Origin: Candidatus Borrarchaeum weybense | GTDB lineage: Archaea; Asgardarchaeota; Sifarchaeia; Borrarchaeales; Borrarchaeaceae | Length of the DNA stretch: 64,000 bases | Direction of reading: 5' to 3' | Assembly (NCBI GenBank): GCA_019057385.1 | Contig: JAHQJS010000006.1 | Location: 248,001 to 312,000, forward strand | Shown here: in pieces, positions 7,771-13,544 of the stretch | How positions within the stretch are numbered: position 1 is the stretch's first letter | Layout: every line of letters starts with the position of its first letter | The notes under the pieces: model-generated | Databases searched by the model: none | Told to the model about the DNA's origin: nothing | Seen by the model: only the letters and a program-made list of their open reading frames with translations | Program-made: the position numbers and the translations under genes

Positions 7771-8757
7771 ATGACACTGGATAACCTACTTAATAAAGAC
7801 CTCAAGTTCATTTTCTTTGGCGGCAAGGGTGGAGTAGGAAAGACGACATGCGCGGCAGCAGCAGCAGTTTGGTATGCAAAAAATACTAACTTGAAGGTTC
7901 TGATAATATCAACAGATCCAGCACATAGTCTAGCTGATTCTTTGGATCAACCGATTGGTGGCGAAATAAAGTCAATCGAAGGCGTAGAGAATCTTTATGG
8001 TCTTGAAATTGATCCAAAGACGGCAATAAAGGACTATAAAAGTCTTATGGGGATTTCACCTGAAGAGAGTTTATCAGACATGTCGCCGGTTCCGCTTGAT
8101 GAACTTGGGATGGGAGATATGTTGGATACGAGCCCACCTGGTATTGATGAAGCATTAGCGTTCGGTAAGGTCCTTGAGTTCATTGAAAAGAAAGATGAAC
8201 ACGATTATGATCTAATCATTTTTGATACAGCCCCTACAGGACATACGTTACGTCTTCTAAGCTTACCTGATGTGCTTGATTCATTCCTAGGAAAGATTAT
8301 AAAACTCAGACTCACCCTTGGGAAGTTTGTAGGCAAACTTAAGAGTCTCTTTGGTAAGGATACAACTGAGGATAGAACAATGGAAGCTTTAGAAAAACTT
8401 AAAGAGTCTGTTGGAAAAGCACAGGTGGATTTGAGTGATCCAGAAAAAACATCATTTTGCACGGTGATGATTCCAGAGGCAATGAGTATCTATGAAACTG
8501 AACGACTTATCACTACACTCTATGAATATGAGATACCAATAAGCAATGTACTTGTAAACATGGTGTACCCAGTTATACCTGACTGCGCTTTTTGCGCTGC
8601 AAGACGAAGTATGCAAGAAGGTAATCTGGAAACTATAAGAGAGTTTTACGCAGAAGAATTCGAAATTACAGAGATCCCACTTTTTGACACGGAGATAAGA
8701 GGTATAGAGCGCTTAGAAATGTTTAGTTCAAAGCTTTTCGGAAAGAATGAGGATTAA
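7771..8757 (+). CDS. Get3/TRC40-ArsA family ATPase
   Basis: FFGGKGGVGKTTCAA deviant Walker A, STDPAHSLADSLDQ, FDTAPTGHTLRLL, and Get3-type CAFCAARRSMQ zinc motif. Confidence 0.88.
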   Translation: MTLDNLLNKDLKFIFFGGKGGVGKTTCAAAAAVWYAKNTNLKVLIISTDPAHSLADSLDQPIGGEIKSIEGVENLYGLEIDPKTAIKDYKSLMGISPEESLSDMSPVPLDELGMGDMLDTSPPGIDEALAFGKVLEFIEKKDEHDYDLIIFDTAPTGHTLRLLSLPDVLDSFLGKIIKLRLTLGKFVGKLKSLFGKDTTEDRTMEALEKLKESVGKAQVDLSDPEKTSFCTVMIPEAMSIYETERLITTLYEYEIPISNVLVNMVYPVIPDCAFCAARRSMQEGNLETIREFYAEEFEITEIPLFDTEIRGIERLEMFSSKLFGKNED

Positions 8758-8809
8758 AGATATTTTTGTGAAGTAATAATTGCGCTTTGAGCGCATCTCA
8801 TCCTTTAGT

Positions 8810-11233
8810 TCATTTTTTTTGGTTTTTGGCATTTGAGATAAGAAGCTTAAATTTTGGAAGTATCAAGACCACAGAAAGATAGAATAGCACACCAACTAAA
8901 CAAAGAATTGAAATTGGATATCCAATAGGAACGTTCTCTTCAAATCTTAATGTTATTAGATGCTCGCCTTCTGGCAATTCTAGAGTAATAATACCAAATT
9001 TGTTTTCTTTGATATTAATCTCTGTGGAATCTAAGTCTGCCTTCCAATTAGGGAAGATCCCATACTTCACAAGAAGTATTCCACCATCTGAAGATTGAGC
9101 GTTAATAATTAAAGCTGTTGGGTTTATTGATACGAATTCTGCAGTACCTATACTATTCGGAAATAAAGTATCAGCGTCGTCAACGATTTCGACCATTGGC
9201 CTGAAATATGGATTTTGCAGGATACTTATATTGGAGTTCTCGTAGAACCTGATTTTTTGCCATCCATTAAGTAGCCATTCTGCATCATTTTTTTGCCTTA
9301 CAATCAAATACTTTAAACTTAAGTATCCAAGTTCTTTAGTCAATGATGGGTTCAAACTAACACTGTTTTCCAAAGATCTTGAGGCTGTCCACCACTGGGG
9401 TCCTTCTACCTCATAAAATTCAGTTTTTGTTATTGATTCGCCCCTGCCTCGCCCGTATAGATCACTGATGCGATAAAGACCAGTGTCGCTGGACTTAATC
9501 CACTGTAAAGCATTCAAATAATCCTCATCTTGGGGAAAGTACTCCCATTTATAGGCGCCTGTATATGGCCACATATCCACTAGAATTAAAAGGACGGTAA
9601 TTACAAGAATCCAGTGGCTTAAACGAAACTTGAAATTCCTTTTAATCTCAAACGCTTTTGCTTTCTCATAGAAAGTACTTACAACTATGCCTGTCAAATA
9701 AGCGATGGAAATTGAAGCGGGTAACAGAAATCGCCATGGCCACTTAAAGAACGAAATTAATGGAACATAATAATAAATAAAAACGCTAGGATAATCTGCT
9801 AGAATAAGAGAAATAACAAGAAGCGCCATAAAAAACTTTGTTTCATTATTTTTAGAGTTCTTATCCTTTGGCTTTATGAAAAACGCAAGTAAAGCAAGTC
9901 CCAAAGAGACTGTACCTATATAGAATGGCATTTCGCCCGCTATACCGATTTTCGACCCTCTCATCCGCCACCAAAGCTCTCTCGTGTAAAGCTGTGGTAG
10001 ACTGACAAAATGCGAAGCAGGATAACCTCCAGTCGATAAAGCGACTTCGTTACTCCATAGAATCGTGGACGTCTGTGTATACGCAGGTATAAGCCACCAT
10101 GCTGTTAATCCTAGCCCTACTCCAATGGGTACGAAATACATAGCAACCATCAAAAATGCTCTATTTACAGTAAGTTGATGGGAGATAAGTTCATCTAGAA
10201 GCGAATAGATTAAATACATAGTGATAATGTAGACAGAGATATACGCTGTCGGTAAATGCGTCAAGATCAATCCTGCGAGGAAAATACCTGAGAATATTGC
10301 TTTTACTAAACGCCTATTCGAATCTGTTTTAAGAGATTCTCTTGAAAGGACGAAAATAAGAGGCACATACATGTAACCCATTAATTCCGTAAAGGTACCT
10401 CTATAAAATGCTGTAGTAAGATGGAGTCCAATGAAAGTAAAGGATATCGCGGAGATACTTGCTACAATGCTATCCTTTGAAATTTTTTTGGTCATATAAT
10501 AAACAGAAAGAGCGCAAAGGATGAACGAAGTAACAATTGCACCCTTTAGAGCTTGAAAGGTGTTTAAAAACCATGAAAAAGGGAATGTAAAATAATAACC
10601 AAGAAAATGATAGAAGCGAAACAATGCCAGACCGCCAATTCCGTTCCAAGGATCGAAAGGGGAATATATTATGCCTTCTCTCCAGTATCGGAACATAACC
10701 CATACATTGCTTACATGATAGGTAAGGTCATGACTCTCTGGAAACCCTGGCTTTGTTAAAAAAGTATGAGTTGGAAGAATAGCTAAAACGACAAGAATAA
10801 CGATAATTATAACTTCTTTTCTTCTTCGCGAATTTTCCAAATAGGACTGAAATGGAAATAATGGAAATGTATACAATAACGAAACGAATATTGTTACAAC
10901 ACAAACGATACCCAAGAGAATATAACTTGGAGGGGTATATGGGGCGCCATAGGTTGTAAGAAGAAATATTGTTAAAAAGACAGCCATTAGAGTAGCGAAG
11001 AACAAGAAAGGACGCTCTAATAACTTCTCAGAGTTCCGATAAAGAAAAAACCCCATAAAAAGAGCAAGTACTCCTAAAACAAACGCCTGAAGTATATAGA
11101 TCGTTCCATCCAAAGGAGAAAAGGAAAATTTCATAAGCAAAGCGAGAAGTACGCCCATGACTAAAAATACAGGATAATAAATAAACTGCTTCATCAAATC
11201 AAATAAACGAGTTTTTTTTATATTTGACGTCAT
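8810..11233 (-). CDS. Large multi-TM GT-C-like membrane protein (6-PTP-synthase-related / YfhO-like)
   Basis: More than 10 hydrophobic segments, C-terminal ectodomain. Confidence 0.6.
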   Translation of the reverse strand: MTSNIKKTRLFDLMKQFIYYPVFLVMGVLLALLMKFSFSPLDGTIYILQAFVLGVLALFMGFFLYRNSEKLLERPFLFFATLMAVFLTIFLLTTYGAPYTPPSYILLGIVCVVTIFVSLLYTFPLFPFQSYLENSRRRKEVIIIVILVVLAILPTHTFLTKPGFPESHDLTYHVSNVWVMFRYWREGIIYSPFDPWNGIGGLALFRFYHFLGYYFTFPFSWFLNTFQALKGAIVTSFILCALSVYYMTKKISKDSIVASISAISFTFIGLHLTTAFYRGTFTELMGYMYVPLIFVLSRESLKTDSNRRLVKAIFSGIFLAGLILTHLPTAYISVYIITMYLIYSLLDELISHQLTVNRAFLMVAMYFVPIGVGLGLTAWWLIPAYTQTSTILWSNEVALSTGGYPASHFVSLPQLYTRELWWRMRGSKIGIAGEMPFYIGTVSLGLALLAFFIKPKDKNSKNNETKFFMALLVISLILADYPSVFIYYYVPLISFFKWPWRFLLPASISIAYLTGIVVSTFYEKAKAFEIKRNFKFRLSHWILVITVLLILVDMWPYTGAYKWEYFPQDEDYLNALQWIKSSDTGLYRISDLYGRGRGESITKTEFYEVEGPQWWTASRSLENSVSLNPSLTKELGYLSLKYLIVRQKNDAEWLLNGWQKIRFYENSNISILQNPYFRPMVEIVDDADTLFPNSIGTAEFVSINPTALIINAQSSDGGILLVKYGIFPNWKADLDSTEINIKENKFGIITLELPEGEHLITLRFEENVPIGYPISILCLVGVLFYLSVVLILPKFKLLISNAKNQKK

Positions 11234-11815: not shown

Positions 11816-12490
11816 CTAGCCGTTTATGAATTGTTCTGCGATCTTACGCCTCACACCATAAAAAATTTTCAAAATTTCTTTTTTTACAAGTCCAGCTAAA
11901 GGCTTATTCAGACGAGTGAAGAGCTCAATGCGAGACATTTTATGTTCATTTGCAATTTCATAAATAGATTTGTTTCCATTGCATGATTCAAGAAGTGCCC
12001 ATTCTTCTCGTGATAATTTTGCTAGTTTCTTGGTATTAACCTCTTGAGTGATCGGAATGCGACAAATCGGTCTGAAAGTTTCTCTTAATGTCTTCTCGAA
12101 ACACAACATCAAAAAATTTTCAATTTTTTCAAAATCCGAAATATCTCCAGACCAATCGTCAAGAACTTGACTGTACTTGATTGAAATTAACTTAGCTGCG
12201 GTAGAAATATCTTCTTCTAATAGAATTGGTGAAGTAAGCACATCCGAGAGAGCAACAACTATGAAATTATGATTTTCTCCCCACTCAAAGACAAATTTTG
12301 TATCACCAGAATCAATCTGTTCAAGTTGGCCATTACCTGAGGAAACCACTTCAGAAATGAGAGAACTAATCCCACTCAACGCCCCACTAACTAAATCTTG
12401 ATCTACACCGTTCATGTATTCTTTACATAAAGAACATGAGTAAATTGTCCTTCCGTCCTTATAGATTATGTAAATCGAATATAGTCCCAT
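11816..12490 (-). CDS. Longin/roadblock-fold-like N-terminal domain plus C-terminal winged-helix-like region
   Basis: MGLYSIYIIYKDGRTIYSCSLCKEY...DLVSGALSGISSLISEVVSSGNGQLEQIDSGDTKFVFEWGENHNFIVVALSD pattern; C-term LSREEWALLESCNGNKSIYEIANEHKMSRIELFTRL. Confidence 0.6.
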   Translation of the reverse strand: MGLYSIYIIYKDGRTIYSCSLCKEYMNGVDQDLVSGALSGISSLISEVVSSGNGQLEQIDSGDTKFVFEWGENHNFIVVALSDVLTSPILLEEDISTAAKLISIKYSQVLDDWSGDISDFEKIENFLMLCFEKTLRETFRPICRIPITQEVNTKKLAKLSREEWALLESCNGNKSIYEIANEHKMSRIELFTRLNKPLAGLVKKEILKIFYGVRRKIAEQFING

Positions 12491-12499
12491 TATAAGACC

Positions 12500-13009
12500 T
12501 CAGCGCATTTTTTCAAGAATCCGAAGTTCATATTCACAAAATTCTTCATTTAATGCTCTACAGTGAGTTTCAACGCAATTAACGCGCCATCCCTGGGTAT
12601 CAATTAACTCTTCATAAACTAGAGAAAAAACCTCTTCAACGATACCTGCAACAAAATCACAGAGAACCCCTTCTCCCTTCTCAGAAGCTAGTGTATCACA
12701 AATGACGCACTGGAAATCGCGTATTTTAAATAGTCCCTTATTTCCAGATATCTTTGGAGAACTTTCAAAAATTTTTTTCCATAAAACTTTGATTAGATTC
12801 TTTATTGTACCATCTTTTAACGGTGCTTTGAGTTTCATGAGTTCCTTGGGAAACACACTGTATAAAATTTCCTCTCCGAAATTCTTTCCCCTTAATTTTA
12901 ATTCCCTGCGAACATCTATGAAAGATTCGTTATACCTATAGAGATGTTTAATAAATAAACCATACATGATAGGTAAAATACGCCGGTTCATCTCAGACAG
13001 AAGCTTCAC
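12500..13009 (-). CDS. V4R/Bet3(TRAPP)-superfamily-like protein
   Basis: RGKNFGEEILYSVFPKEL... and C-terminal VETHCRALNEEFCEYEL resembling V4R ExxCxAxxxxxC signature. Confidence 0.6.
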   Translation of the reverse strand: MKLLSEMNRRILPIMYGLFIKHLYRYNESFIDVRRELKLRGKNFGEEILYSVFPKELMKLKAPLKDGTIKNLIKVLWKKIFESSPKISGNKGLFKIRDFQCVICDTLASEKGEGVLCDFVAGIVEEVFSLVYEELIDTQGWRVNCVETHCRALNEEFCEYELRILEKMR

Positions 13010-13544
13010 CTCTTGCTAGAATGAATTTGCAATAGGGTGTCCCATCTTTTGCCCAGCATTCCGATTCATGGCATGTAATGCCCGAAGAGGAAAAACGCCC
13101 TTTTGCTCCAATATCTTCAAGTGCGAATTCGATGATTGTTTCAATAAAGCCCGCGATAGCTTCAGAAAATGGAAAATGGACAGGTTCAGATATATTCCGA
13201 CATAATTCACTTGATTTGGAAATAATAACTAGCTGATTCGAATCCTTATCCCATTTACACTTATCAGGTTTTTTTAAAAAAACAATTTTCCATATTTCTT
13301 CAATATAGTGTTCTAATTTCTGTTCAATGAGGTTTGGATCTAAAATTTTTGAAAGAAGTGGATAAAAAACTTCGCCAAGTTGCCTGCCAAATTCATGCAG
13401 ATGGTTTGTGATTCGTTCAATATCATATTGAGTTCGCCATACTATGGAATTAACAATAGTTGTGTATAAGCCACCAACTAATGTTGTATTTATCTTATTT
13501 TTGAGATCTTTCTGAGCTCGGCTCTCAGTATGAATTTTAACCAT
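12993..13544 (-). CDS. V4R/Bet3(TRAPP)-superfamily-like protein
   Basis: FGRQLGEVFYPLL... and C-terminal HESECWAKDGTPYCKFILARG, a clear V4R-type signature; overlaps next gene by 17 nt. Confidence 0.7.
   Translation of the reverse strand: MVKIHTESRAQKDLKNKINTTLVGGLYTTIVNSIVWRTQYDIERITNHLHEFGRQLGEVFYPLLSKILDPNLIEQKLEHYIEEIWKIVFLKKPDKCKWDKDSNQLVIISKSSELCRNISEPVHFPFSEAIAGFIETIIEFALEDIGAKGRFSSSGITCHESECWAKDGTPYCKFILARGEASV

Follow-up and report, generated by a model that had tools for sequence, protein, structure and literature searches.

Asgard archaea are among the closest prokaryotic relatives of eukaryotes, and TRAPPC3-like, longin and Rab-like proteins are each known from them, separately. 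In eukaryotic cells the TRAPP core activates Rab GTPases. That core consists of TRAPPC1, C3, C4, C5 and C6; two C3 subunits, and beyond them C5 and C6, flank its two longins, C1 and C4, whose dimer supplies the greater part of the catalytic site for Rab1/Rab11, and the whole is two-fold symmetric, with C1 related to C4 and C5 to C6 (PMC10152722). Because of this relatedness, the core resembles a duplicated half. The operon described here lies in a window of 64,000 nucleotides, by which we mean the whole stretch of DNA that was analysed, and its three genes (A, B and L) share with the eukaryotic core two types of predicted TRAPP-fold subunit and a longin. They differ from it in providing a single longin, with a winged helix attached, in place of C1/C4, and in the absence of the palmitoylated cysteine of the TRAPPC3 pocket, since the alignments and cysteine lists place no Cys at that position in either A or B; nor were C2-type or large subunits found.

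The Thorarchaeal protein Thor-TRAPPC3 (PDB codes 7yh2 and 7yh3; Tran et al. 2024, PMC10933270) was crystallised alone, as a homodimer. It resembles A and B in its TRAPP fold, its helix-2 GxxxG and its cysteine-rich Zn site (kept in B), and matches both at about 1e-6, but no gene context was discussed for it, whereas the window holds two divergent paralogues together with a longin gene. The Heimdall longin–TRAPPC3 fusion MBD3190748.1 (PMC10933270) joins the same two domains, and a longin–TRAPP fusion in a genome of the same class as the host (L052:3318-4208) is of the same kind; MBD3190748.1, however, has one TRAPP domain in a fused protein, whereas the trio consists of separate genes for two TRAPP-fold proteins and a longin that carries a winged helix. 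The V4R domain was proposed in 2008 as the ancestor of Bet3 (PMC2253512), and the V4R regulators PoxR and MsvR share with the trio the V4R fold, a cysteine motif and the occurrence of V4R and HTH in one system. In that class V4R and a DNA-binding or sigma-54 effector domain are found in a single protein, whereas A and B are stand-alone genes beside a longin–winged-helix gene, and A is structurally nearer to TRAPP.

Layout of the operon and its conservation in the genus

The three ORFs are co-directional on the minus strand and overlap or nearly touch. Gene A (12993–13544) encodes a TRAPPC3/Bet3-like TRAPP-fold subunit of 183 residues in which the Zn site is partly lost, gene B (12500–13009) a second, divergent subunit of predicted TRAPP/V4R fold with 169 residues and its Zn cysteines kept, and gene L (11816–12490) a protein of 224 residues with a longin domain (residues about 1–136) and a C-terminal winged helix (about 140–210). 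A and B overlap by 17 nucleotides (12993–13009, minus strand), as both the sequence and the ORF coordinates show, so that the stop of A lies inside the start of B; this suggests that the two genes may be translationally coupled. Gene B starts either at a GTG or at a conserved ATG six codons further in, and the latter start would put B 1 nucleotide past the stop of A. The gap between B and L, also read from the sequence, is 9 nucleotides (12491–12499, minus strand). A gene for an AIRS-domain protein (HypE/SelD-like) lies upstream of the trio at a distance of 195 nucleotides, and the gene for ribosomal L35Ae downstream at 113 nucleotides.

The preliminary description, which had proposed three minus-strand genes that overlap or lie 9 nucleotides apart, V4R-type motifs in two of the proteins and a longin/roadblock-like start in the third, is borne out in all of these points, the ORFs being present at these positions and the quoted sequences all being found. 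Conservation of gene order had been set beforehand as a test, and the order A-B-L is kept in all four genomes of the genus in the Borrarchaeum/Sifarchaeum group (the host, Candidatus Borrarchaeum yapensis, a Borrarchaeota MAG and Candidatus Sifarchaeum marinoarchaea) and is echoed across Asgard archaea. One of the four has a transposase-like gene and small ORFs immediately upstream of the trio. The genes A, B and L are under purifying selection, with dN/dS values between 0.09 and 0.24 for every gene in every pair of these four genomes. The trio sits on a contig of 965 kb in an Asgard genome of 4.18 Mb, and the length of this contig, with the identical gene order in three other assemblies, rules out contamination or misassembly.

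Folds of the three proteins

Protein A matches the Pfam TRAPP model (PF04051) with an E-value of 2.5e-6 and 27.7 bits, just above the cut-off of 27. That cut-off is passed by 44 of the 228 Asgard genomes surveyed and by none of 14 control genomes; nearly all of the 44 are Thorarchaeal, family f4 being assigned to Thorarchaeia from the match between its proteins and the Thor-TRAPPC3 crystals, and the present genus is the only one outside Thorarchaeia to exceed it. A also matches Thor-TRAPPC3 itself (7yh2, phmmer E-value 1.6e-6), and a Foldseek search with its predicted structure (pLDDT 69) returned TRAPP chains at every rank from 1 to 44, with TM-scores up to 0.79. Protein B falls below the Pfam cut-offs for both V4R (E-value 0.0024) and PF04051. 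It nevertheless matches Thor-TRAPPC3 (7yh3) at 2.3e-6 by phmmer, and a profile built from 24 Asgard relatives matches eukaryotic TRAPPC3 at 4e-17, Bet3 at 3e-14 and TRAPPC5 at 5e-8, PoxR being unlisted among the matches of that profile. By these profile methods the predicted fold of B is secure.

The TRAPP/Bet3 family is characterised by two GxxxG glycine pairs, in helices 2 and 5 (PMC2253512). The first pair is present in both proteins, at positions 53/57 in A and 41/45 in B, and in both the second pair retains only its first glycine. B has all four cysteines of the Thor-type Zn site (C101, C104, C117 and C158), whereas A keeps two of the four, in addition to C158/C163; of the cysteines missing from A, one is missing in all four genomes of the genus and another in the window copy. 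Pfam finds no domain beyond the TRAPP/V4R fold in A or B, the winged helix being carried by L. We conclude that A and B are TRAPP-fold paralogues, B being so assigned from its sequence. They are only about 21% identical and fall into separate deep clades of the tree, whose exact placement is uncertain, with long branches flagged; the low identity and the separate clades rule out a recent duplication as their origin. Tandem TRAPP/V4R genes are present in many Asgard families, and in the tree the tandem paralogues cluster by their position in the pair and not by genome, with support in families f24–f26 of 100/99 for the first and 99/90 for the second, support at the deep nodes being limited. Such grouping by position is what would be expected of partners that are inherited together and are not interchangeable, as in heterodimers. 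One locus in that tree (L119) has the two tandem types in reversed order.

For protein L, Pfam gives only sub-threshold matches to longin and roadblock domains, but a longin HMM trained without TRAPP-adjacent members matches it at 5e-24. Its AlphaFold2 model is of low confidence (pLDDT only 53) but agrees in topology with a longin (ββ-α-βββ-αα), having the order ββ-α-ββ-αα followed by three helices. The top Foldseek matches are longin/roadblock-fold chains, including Bet5 (3cue_C), TRAPPC4 (7b6d_E), Mon1–Ccz1 and Sec22b, with COPI zeta, AP sigma subunits and sedlin among the further matches. From the structure search and the independently trained HMM, the longin fold of L is secure. When the longin profile was compared with the PDB, the best longin was TRAPPC1 (E-value 0.0065), followed by Bet5 (0.09), and the winged-helix portion of the L profile weakly matches NPRL2 (0.23); these profile matches to TRAPPC1, Bet5 and NPRL2 are leads, not proof. 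The winged helix itself is recognised from the predicted C-terminal helices of L and from HTH_47 matches in homologous partners. A reading of L as a Sybindin-family longin was dropped: the Sybindin model (TRAPPC1/C4, PF04099) gave no match to L and is silent in this genome, the longin of a second locus in the host (L087, see below) reaching 14.9 bits against a cut-off of 25. The folds that had been proposed in the preliminary description from the sequence of the window, namely V4R/Bet3-like for A and B, and longin-like with a winged-helix-like C-terminus for L, have thus all been upheld, each on the evidence given above.

Related loci and gene linkage across Asgard archaea

Pairings of TRAPP/V4R genes with longin genes recur across Asgard archaea, sometimes beside genes for Rab-like GTPases. 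No GTPase gene was found within the 64,000-nucleotide window; the host genome encodes 37 Ras-family GTPases, and adjacency throughout this genome was judged from searches and from individual genome stretches. At a second locus of the host (L087, 4244-7864; G000:C4:643000-658000), three GTPase genes, a longin–winged-helix gene and a TRAPP/V4R gene are consecutive and co-directional. The GTPases are Rab-like (Pfam Ras, 2e-41), and the counterpart in the sister genome (L088) has the same row with two GTPases; this row is a candidate for a GTPase–TRAPP link that is possibly stronger than the trio in the window. The host also encodes a fusion of a longin with a C-terminal V4R domain (L173:7516-8289, 257 residues), and an Arf-like GTPase gene lies one gene away on the other strand. 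That GTPase gene and the gene for a 189-residue protein, which by eye seems to begin like a longin, overlap each other on the strand opposite to the fusion (L173:8447-9016 and 9000-9548). Elsewhere in the host (L161; G000:C8:159500-162300), roadblock, roadblock, GTPase and roadblock genes follow one another, possibly an MglA/MglB-like or Ragulator-like cluster.

In an unrelated family (L118) the gene order T-T-R is as in the window, the third gene encoding a roadblock-like winged-helix protein. The Thorarchaeial TRAPPC3 cluster has a roadblock–winged-helix gene followed by V4R and, further along, a roadblock–winged-helix gene followed by TRAPPC3 and V4R, and the N-terminus of the Thorarchaeial partner is identified as roadblock by profile comparison (probability 94.5, E-value 7.5e-8). 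Genes of the crystallised Thor-TRAPPC3 type occur in a conserved cluster (L040, L041, L042, L044 and L133–L146) with two roadblock–winged-helix genes, two extra V4R genes, two genes for membrane proteins, one winged-helix gene and an ABC transporter resembling MacB.

Counted over the gene neighbourhoods examined, longin/roadblock–winged-helix genes make up 51 of the 336 genes that are no more than two genes from TRAPP/V4R genes and 6 of the 598 further away (Fisher p 6e-18, a value that is overstated because some of the HMM seeds were themselves TRAPP-adjacent and because related genomes are not independent). The non-seed families f7, f14, f16 and f26 show the linkage too, and it also emerges when the longin HMM that was trained independently is used. 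This recount omits family f10; a first count, 83 of 133, was dropped as too generous because the winged helix is all that the f10 partners have in common with the others, a CxxC/HGxPxHA domain, neither longin nor roadblock, preceding it in these proteins. In several families, the tandem TRAPP/V4R genes lack a longin/roadblock–winged-helix partner nearby.

Some further arrangements were seen. In Thorarchaea, a triad of a GTPase, a small CxxC...HGxPxHA protein and V4R occurs twice in one locus (L128:5364-7037 and 8412-9983), and such triads are also found at L129–L132 and at L110:7561-8955; in family f10 the same domain recurs next to V4R, there in one protein with a winged helix (hhalign 97%). 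This CxxC-HG segment is a putative domain, unrecognised in this analysis, that is tied to GTPases and V4R. In family f3 (L123–L127), a 170-residue TRAPP/V4R gene and the gene for a 490-residue protein with a V4R-like match form a tandem, which a gene for a 123-residue roadblock protein adjoins on the other strand. Another locus (L049; G038:C180) has at least four tandem paralogues of about 425 residues each, in which the N-terminal half appears KaiC-like by eye and a V4R-like C-terminus was detected in three.

Possible functions of the trio

The genes, their layout and conservation, the folds and the recurrent linkage together form the basis for reading the operon as a small heteromeric TRAPP-like complex that regulates a small GTPase, a reading in which we have moderate confidence. 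The 'TRAPP-like parts list' proposed at the outset gains support from the folds and the conserved synteny, and also from the fusions and the GTPase neighbours found elsewhere. In such a complex, A and B would form a TRAPP-fold heterodimer through their N-terminal helices, in the way that TRAPPC3 pairs with C5 or C6, and A would contact a longin platform, probably dimeric, provided by L. The stoichiometry would be about A2-B2-L2, corresponding to a symmetric TRAPP core before duplication gave rise to C1/C4 from its longin and to C5/C6 from its outer subunit. A small GTPase of the Ras, Rab or Arf family would bind to the platform, which would shift its nucleotide state, as a GEF or as a GAP, and a signal, whether a lipid or other ligand or a partner protein, may enter through the hydrophobic pockets of A and B and the winged helix of L. 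We count against this platform the lack of a GTPase gene in the window, the tandems without a partner, the partner of family f10, the weakness of the TRAPPC1 match and the absent palmitoyl cysteine; the homodimeric crystal of Thor-TRAPPC3 and its authors' preference for ligand binding (PMC10933270) also weigh against it.

The main rival, in keeping with the signalling or regulatory role that the preliminary description had named as its alternative, is a ligand-responsive transcription regulator, in which A and B would be V4R sensors of hydrophobic ligands that signal to a DNA-binding winged helix in L, the longin part being merely a dimerisation or docking module. Prokaryotes are known to combine V4R with transcription-regulation domains (Podar 2008, PMC2253512; MsvR, PMC3729527), the sole NCBIfam match of B is MsvR (E-value 0.006), all Asgard partner types, including that of f10, have the winged helix as their only common feature, and the winged-helix portion of L is basic (pI 9.7). 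However, the structural neighbours of A are TRAPP proteins and not PoxR, which is absent from its top 50 Foldseek matches; the region of the recognition helix is hydrophobic, not basic, in several family members (e.g. LLYFRVMMICLDL in L087); and the second locus and the longin–V4R fusion are accompanied by GTPases rather than by regulated metabolic genes. We consider this ligand-controlled DNA-binding system rather unlikely.

The trio might instead be a GATOR1/Ragulator-like platform that scaffolds Rag/Arf-type GTPases or serves as their GAP, with the longin–winged-helix protein as the counterpart of NPRL2/3, which likewise have an N-terminal longin and a C-terminal winged HTH (PMC5681675). 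The roadblock version of the partner in Thorarchaeia and the weak resemblance of the winged helix to NPRL2 would fit such a platform, but the NPRL2 match is non-significant and TRAPPC1 and Bet5 rank first among longins for the longin part of L. To our knowledge, moreover, NPRL2/3 complexes contain no TRAPP-fold subunits, and we think this explanation improbable. That A and B carry or sense a lipid or other hydrophobic molecule, and are co-transcribed with a functionally unrelated longin, accords with the internal cavities of Thor-TRAPPC3, for which its authors proposed ligand binding or transport (PMC10933270), and with the families whose tandems lack a longin partner, but is very unlikely, as the fusions and the repeated longin/roadblock-fold linkage in several families argue against chance.

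Returning to the TRAPP-like complex, the window holds one C3-like protein, one second TRAPP-fold protein and one longin, and thus the equivalent of one half-core; the trio matches the half-core (C3 with C5/C6 and a longin) that is thought to have preceded the two-fold symmetric eukaryotic core. A tentative and, in our view, doubtful extension is that the trio is a living half-core from before the duplication, in which A2-B2-L2 regulates a small GTPase; this complex, or a close relative of it, would have given rise to the octameric eukaryotic core by duplication of the longin and of the outer TRAPP-fold subunit. If true, TRAPP would be a machine that eukaryotes inherited, rather than one that they assembled from inherited folds.

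Neither this operon nor the wider linkage is described in the open-access papers found by our searches; preprints and subscription papers lay mostly outside our search, and priority is accordingly uncertain. The 2024 structural study found the operons of MK-D1 unhelpful for pairing GTPases with these parts (PMC10933270). In contrast to that low value of operons, the operon in the window, the GTPase–longin–TRAPP locus of the same genome and the fusions provide concrete predictions of partners, and the existence of a TRAPP-type complex before eukaryotes thereby becomes directly testable.
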